27,497 nucleotides of DNA from positions 1 to 27,497 of the IMG/VR virus record IMGVR_UViG_3300011116_000564. One strand, given 5' to 3'. How positions within the stretch are numbered: position 1 is the first letter of the stretch; every line of letters starts with the position of its first letter. Below the pieces are notes generated by a model that saw only the letters and a list, made by a program, of their open reading frames with translations, did not search any database and was not told the origin of the DNA. The DNA is from a virus. Shown piece after piece: positions 1,118 to 12,721 of this stretch. A program made the position numbers and the translations under genes.

Positions 1118-3532
1118 CTACTCGGTATCGCTCCAATATTTTGCCCTAACAAGTTCCCCGGTTACCTTATCAATTTTACCAATCTTTAAGGCTGCGGGTA
1201 CGGTAAATTCCCTGTATATACCTGATACATCTCGAATAGTTACCTTAATCTCCATAGCTTCCCTCACTTGATTTGCTAAATGTTCGTGTCCAGATTTGTA
1301 CGAGAAAAGTATTGAGTCATGAATCTGGGAGTGAAGACGGAAAGATTCAGGGTTAGGTAGTGCGATCTCATAGAATACTCTTAGGAAAGCTTCATTCAAT
1401 GTGCGCGCGTTAAGAGATTGCGGACAGTGGGCGACATAAGAATTAAGGTCAGATTTGTTCGTATCAGGTTTTCCAAAACAGTATCTTGTCCAGTCGCCCG
1501 CTTCAATATATTCTCTAGGGTTGTAAGTTCTTTCATTATATTCTGTATGGTGAAAAGCGCGGCTGGATAACTTGCGGGATGTTCCAATTTCGTTAATGAC
1601 GCTGACATAATAAGCTCCTTTAATCTTAGGATAAGTTTTGTGAAATGTATTCAATAAGTGTTCTGCTATTTTCCTCGGGTCAGATTCAGATAAGCCGAGT
1701 AGTTTCTTAGCTTCCCAGATCTTATCCAGTCCCATGGTGTCAATCAGGACTCCTGGTCCCATATTATAATTAGCTCCATGGTTGACTCGTTTTGCAAGAT
1801 CCCGTAGTTTCTTATCTTTAGTCTTTCCGGTAGTGTCATCATAGATCTGATCATATGGCACACCAAAGAATGCTGAAGCATTGACTGAGTGAAAATCTTT
1901 TGTACCGCTAACTGCTTTGATGAGAGCCTCGTCTCCTGAAATGTTTGCAGTATCTCGTGACTCTGCCTGTTCCAGATCACACTCTGCAAGAAAGAAACCG
2001 TCTGGCGCTTCCACAGTTTGTTTAACCTCCGGCCCACGTGGAATGTTTTGTATTTGTAGTCCTGTCCAGAAGTGGTGCTCTCTACTAGCAAGCCTTCCGG
2101 TGTCTGTTCCGTGCGGATTAAGAGCATAGAGTATGAATCCAAAGAACTCTTTAGCTCCTCCATTTCCTTTTGAGTCAGCATCTTTATCTGTCCTTAAATA
2201 GGTTGTTGCAAGTTTACGCCAGCCACGAATGTCAAGAATCTTAGAAAGAATTAGATTATTCAGAGGATGTCTGAGCATCGCTTTCTTGAGATCTTTCTCA
2301 TTTGAGGAATCAATATCTCCACAGCCTAGAATTTTAAGTAAGGTCTTAACTTGTATAGGTGATCCAGGATTAAAACCTTTTGCGCCTACCATAGTCTGTA
2401 CTGATGCAAGGGCCGGAGCTTCTAGAGAATCAACTTCTTTCCGGGCTTCAATCAATCTTTCCTGATTCCTCTTTAGTCCTGTCATTTCTGCCAGTAGACA
2501 AGGATATACAAGAGGGAACTCTAATGTATAGTTTCTCCTTGCCCAGTCTGGTATTGATAACATTTGTTGTATCCAGACATTTGCTGTGGCCCAGGTGTCA
2601 AGTGCATTGTACTTATAGTATTCATGCAGGTCATTAGTTTCTGCAAGATCCTTCCAGTATACCACTTTTCGTAGGAAGAAGGAGTTAAGGAAAGCAAGAT
2701 CCTTTGGTAACTCGGAGTAGTATGAGTGAAACAAATGTGCAGTATCCCAAAGCCAGTTGGTAGGTGCAGCATTATATCGAAGGAGATAGGAACAGTCATA
2801 CTTTCCGTTTTGGAAGATCTTTTGAACAGGTAGCGCATTTATTGTCCTCATCACTGCGAGGTTAAAAGATGAGTCTATAGGTAGAACATAAGAACGAGTA
2901 GTAATACCACCGGACTCAGAGATATAAACACCGGTATAGCCAATGCAGCGAATAGACAAAGGGCTACGAAAAGTTTCAATGTCCGCAGCAATTGCATAGG
3001 CTTCAGATAAGTCTTGAATAATCTCAGCATGATTAGTTCCATCTACCAAAGTCCAATGAAAATCTGTGGCCTCACTCCAGGCTTCCGGGGCAGTAACCTT
3101 CGATATAAATCTCTGTGCAATGAATTTACCGTAGGATACCGTGAACAACTGCTTGAGTGGACTAATGAAAACGATTTCCAAAGTCCTGTACGTGAATAGG
3201 GAACCTTGGTAGTCTGATAAACTAGGGTTGGACTTACTATTACCAGATAACTCAAGGAGTTTGGAAAGGATTGGTATAGAGGTTGAAACAACTCTTGTAA
3301 CTGATCTTTTCGCACAATACATCTCCAGATGAGACAGAAGAGAGATTGGTTCTACGCAGACGTAAGTGTTCAGCCCATTGAACATTCCCTTTAGGTGAGG
3401 GATGTATGCTTTATCTTCTAGTGTACCTAGGAATAGAGCATTGTCACCTTTTTGGGAAGCTTCTTTCTGAGGAACTGCCGCGCGCATCTGTGCAGTCAGA
3501 GCTGCTAGTTTAGATTTCAATGGCGTTGTCAT
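1118..3532 (-). CDS. family A DNA polymerase with 3'-5' exonuclease domain, 804 aa
   Basis: Replicative polymerase of the Pol I/T7 gp5 family. I chose the ATG at 3532 because AGGAG lies about 10 bases upstream; an ATG 21 bases further out (3553) would place that site inside the gene. The proofreading motifs are intact: Exo I ADIETF (D184), Exo II NGKYD and Exo III YNALD. Polymerase motif A is DLEQAESR (D519), motif B is K-R-V-N-H-G-A-N-Y (H585), and motif C is QIHDSILF (catalytic D739). Two positions are unusual: His585 at the Pol I Phe762 equivalent, and Ser where most relatives have Glu after the HD of motif C. The N-terminus carries SKLAALTAQMRAA (residues 7-19), a peptide shared with the helicase at 9715-11373. 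No primase or thioredoxin-binding loop was identified. Confidence 0.96.
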   Translation of the reverse strand: MTTPLKSKLAALTAQMRAAVPQKEASQKGDNALFLGTLEDKAYIPHLKGMFNGLNTYVCVEPISLLSHLEMYCAKRSVTRVVSTSIPILSKLLELSGNSKSNPSLSDYQGSLFTYRTLEIVFISPLKQLFTVSYGKFIAQRFISKVTAPEAWSEATDFHWTLVDGTNHAEIIQDLSEAYAIAADIETFRSPLSIRCIGYTGVYISESGGITTRSYVLPIDSSFNLAVMRTINALPVQKIFQNGKYDCSYLLRYNAAPTNWLWDTAHLFHSYYSELPKDLAFLNSFFLRKVVYWKDLAETNDLHEYYKYNALDTWATANVWIQQMLSIPDWARRNYTLEFPLVYPCLLAEMTGLKRNQERLIEARKEVDSLEAPALASVQTMVGAKGFNPGSPIQVKTLLKILGCGDIDSSNEKDLKKAMLRHPLNNLILSKILDIRGWRKLATTYLRTDKDADSKGNGGAKEFFGFILYALNPHGTDTGRLASREHHFWTGLQIQNIPRGPEVKQTVEAPDGFFLAECDLEQAESRDTANISGDEALIKAVSGTKDFHSVNASAFFGVPYDQIYDDTTGKTKDKKLRDLAKRVNHGANYNMGPGVLIDTMGLDKIWEAKKLLGLSESDPRKIAEHLLNTFHKTYPKIKGAYYVSVINEIGTSRKLSSRAFHHTEYNERTYNPREYIEAGDWTRYCFGKPDTNKSDLNSYVAHCPQSLNARTLNEAFLRVFYEIALPNPESFRLHSQIHDSILFSYKSGHEHLANQVREAMEIKVTIRDVSGIYREFTVPAALKIGKIDKVTGELVRAKYWSDTE

Positions 3533-3585
3533 ATAGGTTAGATCTCCTATCAAATAATTATAAGGCCCACTACAGGCCCTAGGTA

Positions 3586-3834
3586 TTATTCGAAAGCTGG
3601 GATTGACTTTAACAATCTACTTGTAACCATGAAACAAAACTTCTGTCCAGTTGAATCCTTGAGAATAAAATCAGCTGTAGAATTTCCCGCTTTAGTGCCA
3701 TTCTTAACTACAACAATATCTATAATCTCAATTGGTAGATAGTCAGGCTCCTTGTATACAAAACCTTGAGCTACTGCATCTTCAACAGATTCACAGATAG
3801 TAATTTTAAGAGATGCGTGAATAGCGTTTATCAT
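3586..3834 (-). CDS. small protein of unknown function, 82 aa
   Basis: The ATG at 3834 follows GGAGATTATT, a good ribosome binding site. The gene lies just downstream of a strong hairpin (3858-3883) and just upstream of the polymerase. The sequence alternates charged and beta-prone stretches (PIEIIDIVVVKNG, TADFILKD, QKFCFMVTSR), suggesting a small all-beta or alpha/beta fold. No motif I recognise is present. Because it follows a terminator-like hairpin, its expression may be lower than that of the gene upstream, or it may depend on read-through. Confidence 0.65.
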   Translation of the reverse strand: MINAIHASLKITICESVEDAVAQGFVYKEPDYLPIEIIDIVVVKNGTKAGNSTADFILKDSTGQKFCFMVTSRLLKSIPAFE

Positions 3835-3857
3835 AATAATCTCCAGATAAAAGGGAA

Positions 3858-3883
3858 CCCACTAAGAACTTAATCTTAGTGGG
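3858..3883 (-). terminator. hairpin with T-rich tail after the ssDNA-binding-like gene
   Basis: A perfect 10-bp stem (CCCACTAAGA / TCTTAGTGGG) closes a 6-base loop about 25 bases after the stop at 3910. On the minus strand it is followed by TTCCCTTTTA, a moderately T-rich tail. This has the shape of a Rho-independent terminator or attenuator. It would set a high dose of the upstream gene relative to the polymerase, as expected for a stoichiometric ssDNA-binding protein. The tail is interrupted by CCC, so read-through is likely. Confidence 0.65.
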
Positions 3884-3909
3884 TGCTAGATGTTAGATCA
3901 TCGAGATCA

Positions 3910-4353
3910 TCAGATCACAGAGATATCAACCAGTGTTGTGTACTTCCGTGTCTTTTCCGTGTTCGAGCGCAAACCTGTAATGATAAGAACTTCGCAACCT
4001 TGGATCTCGTTCATCAAATCACGGTTAGCTTTAGCACCAAACTTTTCAGCAGCTGCTTTCATAACCTTCTTGAAATCACCTTGGCCGAATTCCTTATCCA
4101 ACAGGAATGCAATACTGGTAGATGCACCTTTGGACAGGGGAGTGTCAGATGAGTCAGCCAGCTCGATTGTTTCATCTGCTACAAAAGTTGCTTCGATTGC
4201 AGGATGTGTACCAATCTTCTTTTGTTCCAGCTTGATGGTAACCTTGTGAGTCCCAGCAGGGAAAGGCTTGAATTCTGGAGCATCTGCCAAGTCATCGAGT
4301 GTGCCGTCAAGCAATGCATTAATGTCGAAAGTGGATTGATCGATAGTAGACAT
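3910..4353 (-). CDS. putative single-stranded DNA-binding-like protein, 147 aa
   Basis: No catalytic motif is seen. After an acidic N-terminus (FDINALLDGTLDDLADAPEF) comes a beta-rich core (AGTHKVTIKLEQKKI, PAIEATFVADE, EVLIITGL), compatible with an OB fold. The gene lies between a dNTP hydrolase/ATPase pair and the DNA polymerase and is followed by a strong hairpin terminator, a usual setting for a phage ssDNA-binding protein made in excess. The SSB role is inferred from context and fold impression; an accessory recombination factor is equally possible. The start at 4353 has only a weak site (AGAAAG). The N-terminal FDINALL resembles FDIDTLL near the N-terminus of the nuclease at 6117-7160. 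Confidence 0.45.
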   Translation of the reverse strand: MSTIDQSTFDINALLDGTLDDLADAPEFKPFPAGTHKVTIKLEQKKIGTHPAIEATFVADETIELADSSDTPLSKGASTSIAFLLDKEFGQGDFKKVMKAAAEKFGAKANRDLMNEIQGCEVLIITGLRSNTEKTRKYTTLVDISVI

Positions 4354-4375
4354 GATAGTAGCTTTCTATAAAAGG

Positions 4376-4756
4376 TTATTTACGGGAGATTGAGCGCAGT
4401 GTAATTACTGCAAGAATATTCCAAGCTGCATGTGCAAGATGTGTAATGCCTGTTTGAGGATCTTTACTATCTTCACTTTGCATATCTTCAAGTAGGTGTC
4501 TAATCATCGCTTCATAATATCGTTCCTTTCCATTAGGTACTTCTATCCAACCATTCTTGGTGTATTTATTTGCACCAAAAGTTCCAACCTTAACTACCTC
4601 TTTAAGTGCAAGAACAAACTTACCGAGGACAAGAAAAGGTAACTGTTTACCTGCATCAAGTTTAGCTCCAGGTTCATGAGGATCTGTTCCTAGAGGATCT
4701 TTCTCGTGAGAGATTGATGCTAGATGTTGTAATTCTAAATCATCAAGTTCAGGCAT
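4376..4756 (-). CDS. dATP/dGTP diphosphohydrolase-family protein (DUF5664-like), 126 aa
   Basis: The order of motifs is that of the DUF5664 / dATP-dGTP diphosphohydrolase N-terminal family, related to MazG-type all-alpha pyrophosphatases: KLDAGKQLPF, then KVGTFGANKYTKNGW, then ERYYEAMIRHLLEDMQSED, then GITHLAHAAWNILAV. Such proteins hydrolyse dNTPs to dNMPs and shape the nucleotide pool; some act in phages with modified bases. I recognise the family by pattern only, and the substrate here is unknown. I place the start at 4756, where GGAG lies 7 bases upstream and the ATG follows the TAA of the ATPase gene by one base (TAAAATG). A start at 4768 is possible but lacks a site. No PurZ or other base-modification gene is visible in the window. 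Confidence 0.72.
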   Translation of the reverse strand: MPELDDLELQHLASISHEKDPLGTDPHEPGAKLDAGKQLPFLVLGKFVLALKEVVKVGTFGANKYTKNGWIEVPNGKERYYEAMIRHLLEDMQSEDSKDPQTGITHLAHAAWNILAVITLRSISRK

Positions 4757-4757
4757 T

Positions 4758-5639
4758 TTAGGCTCCATTCATCTTAGATCTCAAAGCTGCCAATCCGGTG
4801 AGAGCTTTACTTCCTTGCTCATTAGTCTGAGTTGTAGAAACTGTAGGTTTCTCAATCTGCCCGGTAAAGATAGGCAGTAAAGATAATTTACCTGAGCTTG
4901 CAATATCAAAATCAGATCTGGATCTTGTAAGGAATCCATTACTTGCAGTAGATGTTGAGTAAGCTCGGTGAGTTTTATTCTTCACCTCAGTATAAATCAC
5001 ATGATCAAAAGCTGAGGGAAATGTAGCAGACATTCCAGCAGATCCAAAAGATGGAACAAGTTTAGTTGTCTTATCTTCTAGTTCAGCTTCTTGACATTGA
5101 CAAGTTACAATAAGATTATATCTAGCTCCTTGGAATTGGGATTTAAAAAATTCTGTATACTTTCTCAGCGCACCCCAATCATCTCTTTCAGGTTTTGTAT
5201 CCAGAGACTTGTCTTTCATTGTATATGAAAGAATAGAATATGAAAGCTGAGTAGCTGTATCAAGAACTACAATATCTTTAGGCCCGAGTTTATTGAAATC
5301 TACCTCTGTTATAATTGCATCTGGATCCTTTGCGCAGATCGGACAACCTGATTTTCCATGCGCGTCACAAATCTTAGCTGTACCTTTGTTGAAAAGAATA
5401 AGAAGAGTTTGTGCAGCAATTGGATAAGAAGCTGAGTCTGGAATGTTAATAAGATCTATACGATCTTGAGCTTCAGGTGAGAGCTTGAGAAGAGTTTCAG
5501 CTGCGTTCTCTGTATTTATCCAGATTAGATTATATCCATGCTCTGCCATTTCAGCAGCTAATGTTGATTTACCTGAACCTGAGAGACCTAAGATTAGAAC
5601 ACGATGTGTGGATGCTGGTTTATATTGTGAGAGTTTCAT
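4758..5639 (-). CDS. Sak4-like P-loop ATPase with a Cys/His cluster, 293 aa
   Basis: A RecA-like P-loop ATPase of the phage AAA_24/Sak4 type, probably a ssDNA annealing or recombination-mediator ATPase. Walker A is GLSGSGKST (residues 18-26) and Walker B is DIVVLDTATQ (D127). Between them sits C91-x2-H94-x4-C99-x2-C102, a potential zinc-binding knuckle. The last 13 residues, TGLAALRSKMNGA, match the N-terminal peptide shared by the polymerase and helicase. The ATG overlaps the stop of the HNH gene as ATGA with no clear site of its own, so translation is probably coupled. It lies next to the Fe-S RecB-like nuclease, as ATPase/exonuclease recombination pairs often do. The exact subfamily is uncertain. 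Confidence 0.78.
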   Translation of the reverse strand: MKLSQYKPASTHRVLILGLSGSGKSTLAAEMAEHGYNLIWINTENAAETLLKLSPEAQDRIDLINIPDSASYPIAAQTLLILFNKGTAKICDAHGKSGCPICAKDPDAIITEVDFNKLGPKDIVVLDTATQLSYSILSYTMKDKSLDTKPERDDWGALRKYTEFFKSQFQGARYNLIVTCQCQEAELEDKTTKLVPSFGSAGMSATFPSAFDHVIYTEVKNKTHRAYSTSTASNGFLTRSRSDFDIASSGKLSLLPIFTGQIEKPTVSTTQTNEQGSKALTGLAALRSKMNGA

Positions 5640-6115
5640 GATGGAATTTTATTTAGAAGTGGTTTAGTAAAGTATATAGATACATATGTATTGCACGCCT
5701 TAGTTGCTGCAAGTTCTGTATCAAAATAACCTAGATGAACCTTACCCGCTACTGGATGATTAAACTGTGCAGACCAATTTGAGTCTCTGGAATTATATGC
5801 AACACCTTTATATTTAGATGTGCCAGATACTCTCTTATTAGCATTCTGCATATTCTCTGATTGAGAAACTAATCTAAGATTATCTCGTTGGTTATTAAGT
5901 TTGTTTCCATCCAGGTGATCCACAATATCTTTATCTCCTACAGATAGATTAAAAATTTCTCTATGAAAATAAACCAAAGTCCACTTACCTAATACTTTCT
6001 TCGAAGCAACTGCATAGCCAGCTTTATTTACATACCAGCCATATAAATGAACCTTAACAAAATCTATATCAGAGTATAGAAGTTTATTACCTAAAGATAA
6101 AAGTTTAATACCCAT
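5636..6115 (-). CDS. HNH homing endonuclease with AP2 DNA-binding domain, 159 aa
   Basis: Residues about 50-95 form an HNH_3-type nuclease core (YFHREIFNL, then DHLDGNKLNNQRDNLR, then a SQSENMQNANKR tail). The C-terminal part (GTSKYKGVAYNSRDSNWSAQ through GYFDTELAAT) is an AP2-type DNA-binding domain. The combination is typical of free-standing homing endonucleases that spread between phages. I use the ATG at 6115, with AAAGG about 10 bases upstream; an in-frame TTG at 6124 is an alternative. The gene overlaps the nuclease stop upstream and the ATPase start downstream, so it is inserted without breaking the operon. It probably has no role in replication itself. Confidence 0.88.
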   Translation of the reverse strand: MGIKLLSLGNKLLYSDIDFVKVHLYGWYVNKAGYAVASKKVLGKWTLVYFHREIFNLSVGDKDIVDHLDGNKLNNQRDNLRLVSQSENMQNANKRVSGTSKYKGVAYNSRDSNWSAQFNHPVAGKVHLGYFDTELAATKACNTYVSIYFTKPLLNKIPS

Positions 6116-6116
6116 A

Positions 6117-7160
6117 TCATCCAACCTTTCTCAGTTGTGAATCTAACAAGTCTTCCAATCCAATCTGTACCTGATAATCTGTTCTATCTTCTTCCTCAGG
6201 GGTACAAGGTTTGGTAAGATGTTCTGTACTCAATGTGCATGTCTGGAAATATTCACAGTCTCTACCGAAAGAGGTGCAAGATTCCCCATGCATCGGGTAG
6301 ATCTCAGCTTCTTCATATAGTTTAATTGTCTCAATATCTAAGAGGAGCTCACGAATCCAGAGTGCTCGCTGAAGGAAAGATTTAGTGAATGGGATTGGAT
6401 TGTACTCTCTACTCTTAGTTTGATATACTAAATAAAGAACTTTATAACTAGATAGATCGGGATAGAGATGGTCAAGAACAACAGAATAACCAATAGCCTG
6501 CGCTGAATTTTTATACGTTGCTGGGTTGATTGAAGAAGCATTCGTAGTTTTACATTCGAGAACAAGGATTTCTCCAGTGACTTTATGTCTGAGTACAGCA
6601 TCAACAAAACCTCTAAGCCGAAAACCGTCAGGAAAAGTAATAGAGAAACTAAGCTCACAAGCAGGAGCACCATTATAATATACAAGTTCGTAATCATCTA
6701 GGAATCCTTGTTGGCGAAGTTCGAGGAATCTTTGCAGAGCGATTACAGCTAGGAAGAAAGATTTAGCATCACGCTCGTGGATTGCAAACAGATCTGGTTT
6801 CCAATTAAGGAACATTTTCCAAATGATCTCATCTTCAGTTAGACCTTCGAGCGCAAGTTGGATAGCCTCGCCGACAACGTGTCCGAAAGCAAATGTGATT
6901 GAGGATTTGATATCTTCTTCTGTTCTGAAGGTAGATCGTTTCTTATAGAGTTCGAACTTACGAGGGCATTGGTGAAGTGTAAGGAGCGAGGAGTATGATA
7001 ATTGTCGAATCCTGTAATCAATATTTCCTTCATATCCGTCTTCGACAAAAGGTTCTCGGCTAATTCCTTCTGCTCCTGGCAGGATAGTTCCGACAAGATC
7101 ATTGGGAGTACCACTCCAATCTGATAATAGTGTGTCGATATCGAATTCATTGGTAGACAT
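6117..7160 (-). CDS. RecB/Cas4-like PD-(D/E)XK nuclease with probable Fe-S cluster, 347 aa
   Basis: The RecB-family motifs are in order: LSYSSLLTLHQCPRKFELY (C65), GHVVGEAI (H94), GFVDAVL (D187), ECKTTN (E202, K204) and QAIGY (Q221, Y225). One early cysteine (C65) plus three late ones (C295-x6-C302-x5-C308) reproduce the arrangement that holds a 4Fe-4S cluster in AddB, Dna2 and Cas4 nucleases, though the x6 spacing is not the usual one. The likely role is an exonuclease in phage recombination or host DNA breakdown, working with the neighbouring Sak4-like ATPase. The start at 7160 has a weak site (GAGATAACAAA), and a stop lies four codons upstream in frame. Near the N-terminus, FDIDTLL echoes the SSB-like protein. 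No CRISPR array or cas1/cas2 is present, so this is not an adaptation module. Confidence 0.85.
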   Translation of the reverse strand: MSTNEFDIDTLLSDWSGTPNDLVGTILPGAEGISREPFVEDGYEGNIDYRIRQLSYSSLLTLHQCPRKFELYKKRSTFRTEEDIKSSITFAFGHVVGEAIQLALEGLTEDEIIWKMFLNWKPDLFAIHERDAKSFFLAVIALQRFLELRQQGFLDDYELVYYNGAPACELSFSITFPDGFRLRGFVDAVLRHKVTGEILVLECKTTNASSINPATYKNSAQAIGYSVVLDHLYPDLSSYKVLYLVYQTKSREYNPIPFTKSFLQRALWIRELLLDIETIKLYEEAEIYPMHGESCTSFGRDCEYFQTCTLSTEHLTKPCTPEEEDRTDYQVQIGLEDLLDSQLRKVG

Positions 7161-7284
7161 TTTGTTATCTCAGTAATTAGTGGTGAATATATCTCCCCAC
7201 AAAAGCTAAGAGGCTCACAGTGGAGCCAATCTCTGAGAAGTTTATATTCAGGATATGTGAGTCTGTCTCTCAGAGCTACTAAGA

Positions 7285-7392
7285 CTAGTTGTTGCCTGAC
7301 TTGGGAAACAGTTGATTCCAGTATGAGCATACAATGGAGCAAGTAATTGCAATCTGAGTGAGTTTGAATTTCTTTTCAGGAGGATAGATCAT
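7285..7392 (-). CDS. possible 35-aa ORF, perhaps a remnant
   Basis: The ATG at 7392 has AGGA about 7 bases upstream and the frame (MIYPPEKKFKLTQIAITC...) closes at a TAG. It fills part of a 245-base gap between the nuclease and the 95-residue protein. Immediately after it, another frame (from the ATG at 7330) reads protein-like sequence (LRDRLTYPEYKLLRDWLHCE) but has no stop before running 300 bases into the nuclease gene. Either this is a genuine small peptide or an older gene broken by a frameshift. Bases 7161-7284 hold nothing else I can name. Confidence 0.35.
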   Translation of the reverse strand: MIYPPEKKFKLTQIAITCSIVCSYWNQLFPKSGNN

Positions 7393-7405
7393 AGGGATTC
7401 CTATA

Positions 7406-7693
7406 TCAAAAAGCATTAGCACCTAGAGTCTTGATCTTTGCGGCAAGAGTCTTAGATGCTGAAGGTTTAGTAACTTGTGCTGCGAACTCAGTTTGTGTTT
7501 GAACTTTAAGACCTGAGACAATTGTTTGGATCTCCTGCTCAGAGAGCAGTGTGATATTCTCAGGGTATGTTCGGAGAGTTTTCCAGATCTCTTGTAGAAG
7601 ATTCTTCATCTGAGGATGCTTGGAGAGGATAGCATCTGAGAGAGATGAGACGCGTTCTTTAAGTTCGAAACCTTGTGGGATAGGTGTGCTCAT
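7406..7693 (-). CDS. small protein of unknown function, 95 aa
   Basis: The start at 7693 has a GGAGG site and follows the TAA of the upstream gene by a single base, so it is co-translated with it. The protein looks mainly helical (VSSLSDAILSKHPQMKNLLQ, LLSEQEIQTIVSGL). Its C-terminus (SKTLAAKIKTLGANAF) is Lys/Ala-rich and loosely recalls the SKLAAL peptide of the polymerase, helicase and ATPase. Its place beside the recombination nuclease suggests a replication or recombination accessory factor. No domain is recognised. Confidence 0.6.
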   Translation of the reverse strand: MSTPIPQGFELKERVSSLSDAILSKHPQMKNLLQEIWKTLRTYPENITLLSEQEIQTIVSGLKVQTQTEFAAQVTKPSASKTLAAKIKTLGANAF

Positions 7694-7694
7694 G

Positions 7695-7904
7695 TTAACG
7701 ACCTCCAGCTAGGTAGTAGATATCTTGAATAAACTTTAACTGATCTTTATTGAAACCAAGATAGTTGTCATTAAGAGGACCACCTATAGCTACCATCTTT
7801 TGACGAATAAGTTTATAACAATTGTCTGACTCCTTTACCTGTTTCTTGAGTTCTTCAATCTCAAGTTGCTGCTTACCGATTAGTTCAAGCTCAAGACTTG
7901 CCAT
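7695..7904 (-). CDS. small coiled-coil protein of unknown function, 69 aa
   Basis: The ATG at 7904 has a GGAGGT site and overlaps the end of the upstream gene by 14 bases. Residues 1-35 (LELELIGKQQLEIEELKKQV) have strong heptad character and should form a coiled coil. The remainder is Tyr/Asn-rich with another helix (KDQLKFIQDIYYLAGGR). It is probably a dimer or a partner-binding protein. No enzymatic motif is visible. Confidence 0.6.
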   Translation of the reverse strand: MASLELELIGKQQLEIEELKKQVKESDNCYKLIRQKMVAIGGPLNDNYLGFNKDQLKFIQDIYYLAGGR

Positions 7905-8250
7905 GATTACCTCCAGTATTATCTTCCAGCCTATTCTTCTCTTCTTGAGTTGAGGGCATCAGCCCTTTCTCTTTCATAATCCATTCAGAAACAACAAGGT
8001 AATCTTTATCTACCTCATTAGGATTCGTCACTGATTTAGATACTTGTGAGAAAGGAAACCAAGTTGTCAATCCGTGATAAGGAACACCTTGGCAATCATA
8101 GATTGAGAACTTAACCGCTTTGGCTGTCTCACCCATACGGGTACCATTGACTACAAATTGTGAAGATTGTTTAGACATTGCTGGAATATCTTTCTTGGTA
8201 TATGGTTTATAGGCTAGATTGTAATGGTTAGGATACAAAGGATGGGGCAT
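7891..8250 (-). CDS. protein of unknown function, 119 aa
   Basis: I use the ATG at 8250, which overlaps the stop of the upstream gene as TGATG and so is probably translated by coupling. A TTG at 8277 and an internal ATG at 8178 (MSKQSSQF) are alternatives. The likely core is FVVNGTRMGETAKAVKFSI then PYHGLTTWFPFSQV, which looks beta-rich, followed by an acidic Asn-rich tail. I do not recognise a family. It lies within the early minus-strand operon near replication genes. Confidence 0.6.
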   Translation of the reverse strand: MPHPLYPNHYNLAYKPYTKKDIPAMSKQSSQFVVNGTRMGETAKAVKFSIYDCQGVPYHGLTTWFPFSQVSKSVTNPNEVDKDYLVVSEWIMKEKGLMPSTQEEKNRLEDNTGGNHGKS

Positions 8251-8513
8251 CAGAAATCTTTCAGAGTGAAAGAACAAACCCTGGTATATGTTAGAGTAAA
8301 TGTGAGGATGGAATGTTTAGACCTATTCGCTAAGACTGAGGCATAAGGTTCTATCTCTAGCTTATGTTCTATGTCCATCCATTTTTCTTTCTTAATCGCT
8401 TTTACGATTCTTCTGTGTAAGGCTCTCGGCGCAGATACAGACACTCCCACCTTAGCTGCTTCATCCCTAGGAAGAGCTTTAAGTTTCAGCCAAATGGGTT
8501 GATACATTCTCAT
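8250..8513 (-). CDS. small basic protein of unknown function, 87 aa
   Basis: The frame begins at the ATG at 8513 (a second ATG is at 8507), with no obvious ribosome binding site. The middle (RALHRRIVKAIKKEKWMDIEHKLE) is strongly basic and helical, which would suit nucleic-acid binding. The last third is beta-prone (SILTFTLTYTRVCSFTL). It sits directly downstream of the 218-residue protein, after a 104-base AT-rich spacer (8514-8617) in which I see no confident promoter or hairpin. Function is unknown. Confidence 0.6.
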   Translation of the reverse strand: MRMYQPIWLKLKALPRDEAAKVGVSVSAPRALHRRIVKAIKKEKWMDIEHKLEIEPYASVLANRSKHSILTFTLTYTRVCSFTLKDF

Positions 8514-8617
8514 AGTTATAGATTCTGATAGAAAATATATAAGTATAAAAAGTGAGCAGTTTTAAGTCATGCTCAGGACTCAAGGGTTAGGACTTATTTA
8601 TATGCCAGCCCAAGATC

Positions 8618-9256
8618 TTACAGATTCGCAACCAACAATTCTGTATCATTAGCAGACAGATAACCATCAGCCTTACGAACCAACAGTTCAATAATATCTG
8701 TAAACTGTTCAGCGTTAGGCGAGTGTTCAACATACAAAGAGAGTTGTTCTTTCAACTTACCCAGAACTTCCTTATTCGTTTTCACCTGTGCGAACTTCTT
8801 CAGATACACAACAGTTGCATTACCAACTTGTTCTGCAGTCTTGTTAGTAACTCCAGGCATCACAGCAATATAATCTGCTGCAAAGGCTGCCCACAATTCT
8901 TCAGAGATTGCAGAAGCACGGCGATCTTCACGAGGTTGATTAGCAATTGCTTCCCAAGAATACTTCGTTGCATTTGCATCATAGAATGCTTGGTTAAAAG
9001 ATTCATTATCACCTACATCACCGGCAAGAGCTGAACGAATAACATCATAGATTGCATCTTGCAACAGTTCCAGACCCTTGCCACCTTTTTCCAGAATGGT
9101 AACGATACCTTCAACTGAAGGAACAAATGCTTTCAATTCAACATCAGCACGTTTTGTACCCAGCTTATCTTTCTTAAAACGGAACTTGAAATCCTTTTGA
9201 TCTACAGTTTGGTCGAAAGAAGGATTGATTGCTTGGGTTGTAGAAGATTCAGTCAT
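8618..9256 (-). CDS. protein of unknown function driven by its own sigma-70 promoter, 212 aa
   Basis: The ATG at 9256 has AAGGAA about 9 bases upstream; a GTG at 9274 is less likely because it would bury that site. The protein has a basic N-terminal segment (KFRFKKDKLGTKRADVELK) followed by helices. No catalytic motif is recognised. A near-consensus promoter lies about 90 bases upstream, so it is probably made in quantity early in infection. Its plan (basic or beta start, then PSVEG...LEKGGKGLELLQDAI, then helical blocks) loosely resembles the 219-residue protein at 15336-15995, possibly a distant paralogue. An abundant DNA-binding or scaffold-like role is a guess. Confidence 0.65.
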   Translation of the reverse strand: MTESSTTQAINPSFDQTVDQKDFKFRFKKDKLGTKRADVELKAFVPSVEGIVTILEKGGKGLELLQDAIYDVIRSALAGDVGDNESFNQAFYDANATKYSWEAIANQPREDRRASAISEELWAAFAADYIAVMPGVTNKTAEQVGNATVVYLKKFAQVKTNKEVLGKLKEQLSLYVEHSPNAEQFTDIIELLVRKADGYLSANDTELLVANL

Positions 9257-9342
9257 GAGAGATTTTCCTTGCACATTTAAGTGCTTTAAGATTGTTGGTT
9301 AGGTGAGAATTTTCGGGGCAGATTTCTCAACTGCTGGAATGG

Positions 9343-9371
9343 AGTGTATCAGAGGCCGGGGACGCTGTCAA
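9343..9371 (-). promoter_or_regulatory. sigma-70 promoter (TTGACA, 17 bp, TACACT)
   Basis: On the minus strand TTGACA (9371-9366) is followed by exactly 17 bases and TACACT (9348-9343). The spacer is strikingly G/C-rich (GCGTCCCCGGCC), unlike the surrounding genome. It lies in the 134-base gap upstream of the gene starting at 9256 and should fire near position 9336. A matching CCCCTTGACA occurs in the control-region promoter at 15017-15045. Confidence 0.8.
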
Positions 9372-9390
9372 GGGGTCCCTCACAGTCTAG

Positions 9391-9702
9391 TTAAGAAGGG
9401 GATAAAGTAAAGTTCCTTGGTTTAGAATGAAAACGAGTTGAGCCATCATATTCATGAATGTAATATACATTTTCAGCAGTCCAGATAACTACATCATGAC
9501 AATCCACAGCTCCATATCCTGTATCATATTCATAGTTAAGCAATGCTTGGATTTCAGGTGTGAATTGCAGAGTCTTTCCTTCTAGATGTTCAGGGATTTT
9601 TAGTTTATCAGCGTAATAATAATCAGAAGTGCCCCCTAGAGTGATTGCTAGGATTTCTTCTCCATTAGTTTCCTTGAGAATGTCTTGTAAAAAATTAGCC
9701 AT
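9391..9702 (-). CDS. protein of unknown function, 103 aa
   Basis: The ATG at 9702 follows AAAGGCTATAATC. The protein is acidic and aromatic-rich, with alternating strands (EEILAITLGG, DVVIWTAENVYYIHEYDG), suggesting a small beta-sheet fold. It lies just downstream of the SF1B helicase and just upstream of the 9.3-kb promoter, so it is likely the last gene served mainly by the upstream promoter. I recognise no family. Confidence 0.65.
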   Translation of the reverse strand: MANFLQDILKETNGEEILAITLGGTSDYYYADKLKIPEHLEGKTLQFTPEIQALLNYEYDTGYGAVDCHDVVIWTAENVYYIHEYDGSTRFHSKPRNFTLSPS

Positions 9703-9714
9703 GATTATAGCCTT

Positions 9715-11373
9715 TCACGATTTCTCCAATTTACCTTTGAAATATTCAGCTTTCTCTTTAAGAGTATTACCTTTAATACGTTGAGTTTGTACCCCTTTAA
9801 CAAAGTGATCATCCTCGCAGATTATATATAACTCTTCCCTGGCTCTTGTGACTCCGGTGTATAACATCTCTCTGTTTACCATAGTATTATGCGATTGGTG
9901 CATAACAATGAAAACTTTGCGGAATTCCGAGCCTTGCGCCTTGTGAAAAGTTAATACATACCCTAAAACTAAAGTGTTAATATCTGCTGCCTTGTCTACT
10001 TTAATTGTCACTCCAGAATCTAACATCTGGATTGTAAGAACATGGGATGCTTGACGAACACGATCACCAGATTCTGAGGATGATACTTGGGAAAGAAGAA
10101 AGTCCATATCATCATCACTGACTGCGTCAACTCCGGGAGGTGTTGGATCATATCCCCAATAATCTAAAGATTTAGATGCTGGTAAGGGAGTTGCTCCAGT
10201 GTAAGATGGATTAGGATTAATCTCTATGATTGTTGCATCTTCCTTGTCATATAGAATCTTATCTCCAGGGGAAAGATAGTATTTATTAAATCCTGCAATA
10301 ATCTCATAAGTTGTAGCACCTCGTTTCTTAGAGAGATGGTTAGCGAGGATCTTGTTTAGTTCATCTGTTCCGAAAGATTTGTTAAATGGGATAAGGATGA
10401 TATCTTCTTCTGGATCATACAGAGCTTTCTCCTCTGCTTGAATAAAGAACATACCAGTAGTTCTTAAAGCTTCATCAGGAGAAATCTTTTTCTTCCAGGG
10501 ATGGATTGTGAGGCCAGTACGATTCCAATCTTTTAGCTCTGTCGGAGGTATTGGATTACCAGAGAGAATTCTATGCGCCAAAGATATAATCGGAGACTCC
10601 AATGCTTGGCGATATACTTCGGTGAGTTCAACAACAGGGAGGGAAAGAAGTTTGAATCCTAAGATCGCCGGACCGAATACAGGTGGTAATTGCTGTATAT
10701 CACCGAGAAAGATTTCTTGAGGGGAATGAGGACACGCATCTTGTACTTCCTTATAAAGATCAGTTCCAATCATAGATGACTCTTCAAATATGATTGTATG
10801 TATTGAAGATGGTAGAGGATTAGAATAATTCCTGGCAGGTTCAAAGGACATTTTAGTTTTTATGTCCCCTGTGATCGGATCAATAACTTCTGTATATACA
10901 GGTTGGTATTCGAGAAGTTTATGGATTGTTATGCAATTGTTTTGTAAATCTGCTGGCATATTCCGGCGGATGTTAGCAACTGCACGGCGAGTATATGCAA
11001 CAATTACAATACCTGGGGAAGATTGTGGAAGATATTTATGTCCTTCTGGAGATAAGATTCCAGCGCGGCCAGATTGGATAAGGGAAGATACAACTGCTTT
11101 CTGGGAAGTTGTTTTACCTACGCCGGCTGGACCAATGAGAACACAAGATTGACCAGTAACAGCAAGATTAACAAATTCCATTTGTTTGGAATTCAGTGCG
11201 ATTAGATTACCATATTTGTCATAGATATGGTTGGAGTCTTGGGCTGGTTCCTTTGGAAGATTGTGTAGATTAGTTTCGGTTCCAGGGGATGTTACGGTTG
11301 GAGATGTAGCAATCTGCGCGGCTCGAATCTTATCTCGTAGCGCGGCAAGTTTGGATATTGGTAGACTAGACAT
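9715..11373 (-). CDS. SF1B DNA helicase, RecD/Dda-like, 552 aa
   Basis: The superfamily 1 motifs are in order: Walker A GPAGVGKTT (residues 81-89), motif Ia VIVAYTRRAVANIRR, motif II IIFEESSM (Walker B variant EE), motif III GDIQQLPPV, a motif IV/V block YVLTFHKAQGSEF, and motif VI YTGVTRAREELYI. TFHKAQG with VTRA is characteristic of the RecD/Dda group, 5'-3' helicases used in phage replication and recombination. The start at 11373 has TAGGAA upstream. The N-terminus carries SKLAALRDKIRAA at residues 7-19, the same residue positions as in the DNA polymerase, joined by a flexible Pro/Thr-rich linker to the helicase core, as expected for a tethering peptide. Confidence 0.93.
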   Translation of the reverse strand: MSSLPISKLAALRDKIRAAQIATSPTVTSPGTETNLHNLPKEPAQDSNHIYDKYGNLIALNSKQMEFVNLAVTGQSCVLIGPAGVGKTTSQKAVVSSLIQSGRAGILSPEGHKYLPQSSPGIVIVAYTRRAVANIRRNMPADLQNNCITIHKLLEYQPVYTEVIDPITGDIKTKMSFEPARNYSNPLPSSIHTIIFEESSMIGTDLYKEVQDACPHSPQEIFLGDIQQLPPVFGPAILGFKLLSLPVVELTEVYRQALESPIISLAHRILSGNPIPPTELKDWNRTGLTIHPWKKKISPDEALRTTGMFFIQAEEKALYDPEEDIILIPFNKSFGTDELNKILANHLSKKRGATTYEIIAGFNKYYLSPGDKILYDKEDATIIEINPNPSYTGATPLPASKSLDYWGYDPTPPGVDAVSDDDMDFLLSQVSSSESGDRVRQASHVLTIQMLDSGVTIKVDKAADINTLVLGYVLTFHKAQGSEFRKVFIVMHQSHNTMVNREMLYTGVTRAREELYIICEDDHFVKGVQTQRIKGNTLKEKAEYFKGKLEKS

Positions 11374-11391: not shown

Positions 11392-11718
11392 TCAATAAAC
11401 AGGTGTGAGAGGTAAAGCTCTTACAAGTGCATATCCTTCTTTATGATCCTTATGGCATCTGAAGGAGATTGCAACTTTAGATGCCCTGAAAACCATATCA
11501 ATATCCCCACGATAGAATAAGATCTGATATGTGGTTCCATTGTGGAAGACTCGCCCGGATTGGTTATAATATAGGCGAGAGAAATAATCTGTAGACCAAT
11601 GGTGGAGATAGTAAGATGAGAGTTCCTTAACTTGTTCAGGGGGAATTTCCCAGCAAGATGTTAAGAGAAGGGATAATGCTTTATCTTTCGGAAATGGGGA
11701 GGATCTTGGATCAGACAT
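11392..11718 (-). CDS. protein of unknown function, 108 aa
   Basis: I use the ATG at 11718 because AAGGAG sits 6 bases upstream; it overlaps the end of the upstream gene by 8 bases. An in-frame start at 11760 would lie well inside that gene. The sequence is rich in Tyr and His with a possible small alpha/beta fold (TTYQILFYRGDIDMVFRA). No motif is recognised. It lies between an unknown 336-residue protein and the helicase in the same operon, hinting at a replication-linked role. Confidence 0.6.
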   Translation of the reverse strand: MSDPRSSPFPKDKALSLLLTSCWEIPPEQVKELSSYYLHHWSTDYFSRLYYNQSGRVFHNGTTYQILFYRGDIDMVFRASKVAISFRCHKDHKEGYALVRALPLTPVY

Positions 11719-12721
11719 TTGATTCTCCTTCTTGATTCCGTGTACCTGCCTTTTGTGCAAGCTGATATCTTAGCCGGGCTTTCATATATAAGAACTTGGT
11801 TGGATACTGTTCGGGGCGCGGCTCAGATTCTGGAGCTGAATCAATCATACCTTTAAGATTCGCATCTTCTACTGTATCTGATGCACCGAGAATTGTGTAG
11901 GTAGATTTAGATATGTCAAGATCACCTAGGCCAAGGAAGTTCTTTTGTCTTTCTAGGGAGTGTCGGAGAACTTTAAATAGTTTATCTGAGAAGATAGATC
12001 CATATGGGATATGTTCTTCACAATGTTCTAGGAGTTCTTCAAGATCCCTGCGGCGGATAGAGAATATAGATTCCTCTTTAGTTGCCCGGATTATGAGAGA
12101 TTTCCAATAGTTTGCACAAGTATCTGTATGACCTGTGAAAGGATTGATTAGGGAGAATGTAGGGAAAGATCCAGCAACTGCTGCCCAATCTGAAAGTTGG
12201 ATAGAATATGTTGATACATCTTTGTGAGAAGATTTTATCAGCCTCTCTAGGGCAGCTTCCCTTGCGATAAGTTTCTGAGATTCATTAGCAGAGACATATC
12301 CATCAAGATGATCTTTATATGCATCTTTCCAATTCTGTATCCAGTATTGTATGTTTCCTAGACCTTTTGTTTCTGGGGAGATTACATACCTAGGGAATAC
12401 TTGGGATGGATTGATAACTGTATTAAGGCGGAGAAGAGTTTTGGTTAGAGATTCCATATTGAGGGCAATGATAGAATCTGTTTCGGGAGTTCTAGTTGCT
12501 GCTACTCTGAACTCAACTAATTCAGAGGATCTTAGGAGGGCGAGAAAAAGTAGGTAGGAATCAGTAGATGTTAGTTCACCTGCCGACCATTTAGATAAGT
12601 ATGGTAAGAGTTTCTTTTGAGGTACTGAGAATATAGGGTGGTAAGATTCTCTGGAATATAGAGATCCAGGGAAGTGTTCACATGTGAATTCTAGGGATGA
12701 ATAGGCACATAAGATTTTCAT
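11711..12721 (-). CDS. protein of unknown function, 336 aa
   Basis: The ATG at 12721 (MKILCAYSSLEF) is preferred over an in-frame start at 12757; AAGGAATC lies about 11 bases upstream. The protein begins with EFTCEHFPGSL and has a helical middle (ANESQKLIAREAALERLIKS) and a Glu/Arg-rich region (IRRRDLEELLEHCEEH). It has several Cys and His but no complete metal-binding or nucleotide-binding motif that I can see. It is co-transcribed with and upstream of the SF1B helicase. A helicase loader or primase-associated role is possible by position only. Confidence 0.65.
   Translation of the reverse strand: MKILCAYSSLEFTCEHFPGSLYSRESYHPIFSVPQKKLLPYLSKWSAGELTSTDSYLLFLALLRSSELVEFRVAATRTPETDSIIALNMESLTKTLLRLNTVINPSQVFPRYVISPETKGLGNIQYWIQNWKDAYKDHLDGYVSANESQKLIAREAALERLIKSSHKDVSTYSIQLSDWAAVAGSFPTFSLINPFTGHTDTCANYWKSLIIRATKEESIFSIRRRDLEELLEHCEEHIPYGSIFSDKLFKVLRHSLERQKNFLGLGDLDISKSTYTILGASDTVEDANLKGMIDSAPESEPRPEQYPTKFLYMKARLRYQLAQKAGTRNQEGESNV

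Follow-up and report, generated by a model that had tools for sequence, protein, structure and literature searches.

The viral record IMGVR_UViG_3300011116_000564 of IMG/VR, a complete record whose entire 27,497 nucleotides were analyzed and are termed here the window, carries on its minus strand a replication cassette in which one short peptide recurs at the termini of three enzymes of unrelated fold. The cassette runs in the order p348, helicase, p213, small proteins, exonuclease, Sak4-like ATPase, a dATP/dGTP diphosphohydrolase-like protein, p147, which resembles a single-stranded DNA-binding protein (SSB), and polymerase. Start codons were inferred from open frames; for the polymerase, a start at ATG 3532 fits because a ribosome-binding-like AGGAG lies just 5′ of it, the TTG at 3553 that served as the ORF-finder start being located directly before this AGGAG. 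The three enzymes and their putative docking peptides are as follows.

1118..3532, minus strand: family A DNA polymerase, 804 amino acids from ATG 3532 (PF00476, 5e-25; phrog_17, 5e-64)
3476..3514, minus strand: putative docking peptide SKLAALTAQMRAA, polymerase residues 7-19 (22.4 bits in leave-window-out scoring)
4758..5639, minus strand: Sak4-like ATPase, 293 amino acids, identified by matches to AAA_24 (PF13479, 3.7e-13) and phrog_124 (4.3e-20)
4761..4799, minus strand: putative docking peptide TGLAALRSKMNGA, last 13 residues of the Sak4-like ATPase (15.4 bits in leave-window-out scoring; motif found de novo in 64 Sak4 C-ends)
9715..11373, minus strand: SF1B Dda-like helicase, 552 amino acids, ATG 11373 (phrog_325, 1.1e-61; AAA_19/UvrD_C_2)
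11317..11355, minus strand: putative docking peptide SKLAALRDKIRAA, helicase residues 7-19 (15.7 bits in leave-window-out scoring; motif found de novo in 70 relatives)

A preliminary description of this DNA had pointed to the likeness of these peptides, and their sequences, positions and codons were all as it had given them. The shared LAAL core is encoded by CTA GCA GCT CTG, CTT GCC GCG CTA and TTG GCA GCT TTG. These different codons, together with the presence of the protein pattern across diverged phages, bore out the claim that the likeness was not due to a recent DNA duplication. The residue numbers 7-19 in both polymerase and helicase were also correct, but their identity was incidental, as the distance from start to peptide differs among relatives. 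For scoring of the window, both the window itself and its near sister, L001, were left out of the training of the motif matrices. The three enzymes were the top scorers among the 156 open reading frames (ORFs) of the window, bar one 54-amino-acid ORF; this unsupported and implausible plus-strand frame (15.6 bits) was the sole other match in the window above 9.3 bits. A chance likeness within one genome was ruled out by this leave-window-out scoring and by the relatives.

Relatives were collected by one protein scan and two alignment scans of IMG/VR, to which Tiera, EBPR podovirus 3, PaP2 and Aeromonas phage P5 were added from GenBank, giving a total of 100 non-redundant loci. All three peptides were present in the near sister L001. 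In distant relatives the helicase N-tail nearly always carried the peptide (for example, KERLAALVAQMRAKK) and the majority of Sak4 proteins ended in it (SILARLAAKKAAQ, ALEALRAKLAEQKKG-like), while the linker between the peptide and the folded domain varied, with about 40 amino acids leading to the helicase motor domain. An expectation-maximization search of 70 non-redundant helicase tails (80% identity filter) detected de novo the motif [KR][LMF]A[EA][LI][LI]A[KR]x[RK][AE]xK, with the consensus KLAELLAKxRAxK and a log-likelihood ratio of 851 nats versus 251 to 271 in shuffled tails. Separate de novo searches gave 438 versus 201 to 210 for the Sak4 C-ends and 236 versus 123 to 139 for the polymerase N-extensions.

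Conservation within a family requires nothing beyond shared ancestry, which does not explain a likeness between unrelated families. The Sak4 and polymerase matrices both aligned with the helicase matrix at offset 0, that is, in the same register; column-permutation p values were 0.0005 and 0.0005 for these pairs and 0.003 for Sak4 versus polymerase. Training on helicases only gave a matrix that scored p ≤ 0.05 for 17 of the 25 polymerase extensions and for 18 of the 66 Sak4 tails. We are in little doubt that the motif is real and conserved.

Alanine is conserved at matrix positions 2, 6 and 10 and arginine at position 9; the motif has a net charge of about +1.9, very few aromatic residues (0.19 per motif) and a moderate hydrophobic moment (0.40). 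These properties bear on two other explanations. The peptides could be no more than basic amphipathic helices of a generic kind, with DNA or the cell membrane as their target, as would suit their basic, amphipathic and terminal character, and we take the C-ends of Sak4 and PaP2 (DILARLRAKKK, PSFLAGLKKK) to resemble MinD-type membrane anchors in outline. The position-specific alanines and arginine, the aromatic content and the hydrophobic moment all speak against this explanation, as do the lineage-specific variants described below, and we regard it as improbable. Alternatively, the helices might bind one another and so bring helicase, Sak4 and polymerase into direct association. Their leucine- and alanine-rich amphipathic character is compatible with such self-association, as are the near-identical peptides found within single phages in some cases (Tiera, L087) and the second copies in helicase tails (at least two copies in 13 of 70 tails versus 1.8 expected). 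The positive net charge disfavors it, however, and conservation is as good in the alanine, arginine and lysine columns as at the leucines, making direct association of this kind quite improbable.

The motif was concentrated in the cassette. Across 144 ORF clusters, it was detected at 83 of 92 helicase N-termini, 60 of 85 Sak4 C-termini and 23 of 70 polymerase N-termini, while most other clusters had zero or one match. It has also appeared on two further cassette proteins, whose window members are as follows.

6117..7160, minus strand: PD-(D/E)XK exonuclease (PF12705, 1.4e-12)
7406..7693, minus strand: 95-amino-acid protein (p95), with the motif on an N-extension in some relatives only and a different motif at its C-end

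The exonuclease N-end carries the motif in five relatives (L056, L061, L063, L069 and L070) but not in the window, and one motif-discovery run on exonuclease tails returned a domain-boundary motif in place of the docking motif. N-extensions of the 95-amino-acid family bear it in L033, L034, L051, L065 and L107. The C-end of the window's 95-amino-acid protein, put forward in the preliminary description as a looser fourth copy, was instead a family-specific end with a different hydrophobic spacing. On the polymerase tree, the history of the peptide involved at least five changes, of which at least three were forced by well-supported (starred) branches. The peptide thus has the marks of a short linear motif: a conserved stretch of 12 to 14 residues in variable tails, occurrence on unrelated proteins of one pathway, and gain, loss and duplication. 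The outcome that the preliminary description had set as a refutation, homologues that lack the peptide or vary freely there, was not what the helicase and Sak4 families showed. The relatives strongly support the earlier idea that several replication enzymes share a short linear motif, helicase and Sak4 keeping a motif that moves within the cassette; the polymerase peptide fares less well, being present in only 18 of the 44 polymerases on the tree; one of these 18, in L080, is probably a false call because the peptide lies upstream of its ATG. A 138-amino-acid protein of no assigned function, absent from the window, was found in 19 loci (L054:14120, L061:6007, L069:14293 and 16 others), and several of these proteins carry the motif at the N-end (LAARIAKLRAS).

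Two of the GenBank relatives carry variants of their own. The Tiera pattern [LIVM][ST][LFIVM][KR][ED][KR][ILVM] had exactly three matches in six frames, two in the helicase N-tail and one at the Sak4 C-end. PaP2 has SFLxxM-type peptides at the same places, two in the helicase N-tail and one at the Sak4 C-end; this pattern is looser than that of Tiera, and other frames match as well. SFLxxM-type peptides were also seen in PaP2 (L010) on two hypothetical early-region proteins, gp44 and gp56, in the latter close to its C-end. Lineage-specific variants common to several proteins suggest a co-evolving pocket. They also bear on whether the partner could be a protein of the host, for instance its SSB, its clamp or its replicative helicase. 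Such peptides are the means by which many phage proteins hijack host factors. Variation by phage lineage is, however, what would be expected of a co-evolving phage partner; these phages encode their own polymerase, helicase and probable SSB, and comparison by eye gave no match to the clamp-binding consensus. A host partner is therefore very unlikely.

Because unrelated folds carry the peptide, a single common partner is indicated, and docking to one shared partner is, from the sequence comparisons, what we think the peptide probably does. The candidates named in the preliminary description were the SSB-like protein and proteins of 212 and 219 amino acids. Gene content favors the first of these, p147, narrowing the choice of partner without establishing it.

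3910..4353, minus strand: p147, SSB-like OB-fold protein, DUF669-like, the preferred partner (AlphaFold2 model, Foldseek, family matches, gene content)
4270..4353, minus strand: conserved acidic flexible N-tail of p147, FDINALLDGTLDDLADAPEF (low pLDDT, the per-residue model confidence)
4376-4768: dATP/dGTP diphosphohydrolase-like protein between Sak4 and p147 (PF18909, 3e-21)

The AlphaFold2 (AF2) model of p147 (pLDDT 89) has an oligonucleotide/oligosaccharide-binding (OB) fold, with Foldseek matches to PrgE (E 4.4e-5), SsbA and viral DUF669 proteins at a probability of about 1. The window protein itself had no sequence match to PF05037/DUF669 or to a phage SSB family, while weak matches were obtained within its family to DUF669 (3 of 57 members, best 9e-4) and to the phrog_378 SSB family (4 of 57, best 3.3e-4). 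All 66 loci having both Sak4 and polymerase contained p147, which was located between them in 64; in the window it lies beside sak4 with one small gene (4376-4768) in between. PHROG names families related to the product of this small gene endolysin, which looks like annotation spill-over.

The N-tail of p147 has a mean net charge of −6.3 and follows the pattern LLDxTLDDLADLPEF, with L15, L19, D20, D21, L22, D24 and P26 conserved at 90% or more. A DDDIPF-like acidic C-tip is absent from p147, whose C-ends (such as TLVDISVI) have a mean net charge of −0.4. The C-end of the 95-amino-acid protein (MTLDDL, TTLDDL, MTVDDL) resembled the TLDDL core of this N-tail at p ≤ 0.05 in 27 of 79 relatives, where about 4 were expected. 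In Aeromonas phage P5, SMTKDLSIEQIMSML closes the 95-amino-acid homologue, and the SSB-like protein begins ...LMKDMSIEQLLAL. The reading FxLDxFLSD is frequent in exonuclease N-tails, but their likeness to the acidic LDDL motif of the SSB N-tail was not significant (3 of 53).

Another phage protein could act as the scaffold to which the peptides dock, the candidates being p213, p348 and the 95-amino-acid protein.

8618..9256, minus strand: p213, conserved protein with no fold assigned, alternative partner (AF2 pLDDT 86)
11711..12721, minus strand: p348, conserved protein with a conserved YLKAKMRW-type C-terminal helix

The proteins p213, p87 and p95 lie inside the cassette and were kept in 72 to 74 of 77 loci having both helicase and exonuclease; the AF2 model of p213 was confident, and its fold had no PDB match at E below 0.001. 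Tiera, PaP2 and EBPR podovirus 3 have none of the three, however, yet Tiera and PaP2 keep clear motif variants on helicase and Sak4. Some 95-amino-acid proteins bear the motif themselves. Such a hub is fairly unlikely. In p348, kept in 80 loci, the end that comes after the YLKAKMRW-type helix varies and is often acidic; this protein could be a further client.

The motif and its specificity for the cassette come from computation; that it docks, and to which partner, is what we infer. The explanation that we consider best, to which we give about an even chance when taken as a whole with p147 as the partner, is that the peptide serves as a short linear motif for docking, in which about 12 residues on a flexible tail form a basic amphipathic helix rich in alanine. 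SSB-coated single-stranded DNA would display p147, to which the basic helices of Sak4, of the helicase and, in some phages, of the polymerase and exonuclease would dock; either the acidic N-tail of p147 or its OB surface may receive the basic helix. The common partner would tether the enzymes to one another, either at the fork or on single-stranded DNA, and docking would keep three activities (annealing, unwinding and synthesis) on one and the same DNA. That this partner is p147, the phage's own putative SSB, follows more weakly than docking itself, and the arguments on its two sides seem to us about balanced.

Several observations weigh against this explanation. The assignment of p147 draws on gene content, charge and precedent, and gene content is also compatible with a partner among helicase, Sak4, polymerase and exonuclease, since these too are universal. 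The shuffles leave in the shared ancestry within each family, the cross-family comparisons being the stronger test, and the counts for helicase, Sak4 and polymerase depend on matrices trained on those same families. Most polymerases on the tree are without the peptide, which is carried by two main clades; some Sak4 C-ends are degenerate; and the three peptides are unequally constrained, the polymerase copy being the least conserved. Within a phage, the helicase and Sak4 peptides co-varied significantly when all loci were compared (p 0.007), but comparison with close relatives gave no significance (p 0.33), and strict co-variation beyond the level of the clade was not supported.

A more speculative extension, which we hold to be doubtful, is a code of two peptides, with the basic helix KLAxLLAKxRA on the enzymes and an acidic LDDL-type peptide on the SSB N-tail and, in about one-third of relatives, on the C-end of the 95-amino-acid protein. 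The polarity would be opposite to that of classical SSB tails, and phages would rewire the fork through movement of the peptide from one protein to another.

A literature search of a limited open-access set found no description of such a phage motif. In HK620, the gene next to sak4 encodes a DUF669 protein of proven SSB function, whose acidic C-tail, NDYPPF, recruits Sak4 (PMC5928155). The two systems would share SSB-centered recruitment of recombination proteins and a gene of this kind next to sak4, p147 in the present case. In E. coli and HK620, however, the ligand is the acidic C-tail of the SSB itself, whereas here it would sit on the clients, and the Sak4 of HK620 is without the basic C-end peptide. 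The nearest working analogue of the proposed recruitment is the RPA32C-binding motif of UNG2, XPA, SMARCAL1, TIPIN and NEIL1, in which a basic-hydrophobic peptide in disordered parts docks to an acidic surface of the SSB (PMC11387677) and a short peptide is likewise found on several unrelated DNA enzymes. That system is eukaryotic and its receiver is the winged-helix domain of RPA32, whereas p147 is an OB fold. The beta-clamp binding motif (PMC11139829) also places one short motif on many replication enzymes that share one hub. The present peptide differs in being a basic helix, with no QLxLF-type peptide seen on comparison by eye, and no phage clamp gene was recognized among the window ORFs scanned. 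PrgE of plasmid pCF10, the closest solved fold to p147, is a plasmid protein whose N-tail mediates subunit contacts on DNA; the excerpted text of its description mentions no client motif (PMC11137577).

How most phage replisomes outside T4 and T7 hold together is poorly known. A peptide marking the clients of one hub would allow the members of a replisome to be listed from sequence alone, and their recruitment could be tested by small deletions. If the hub is indeed the SSB, recruitment in these phages would proceed via peptides on the clients and not via the SSB tail, in principle as with eukaryotic RPA32C.

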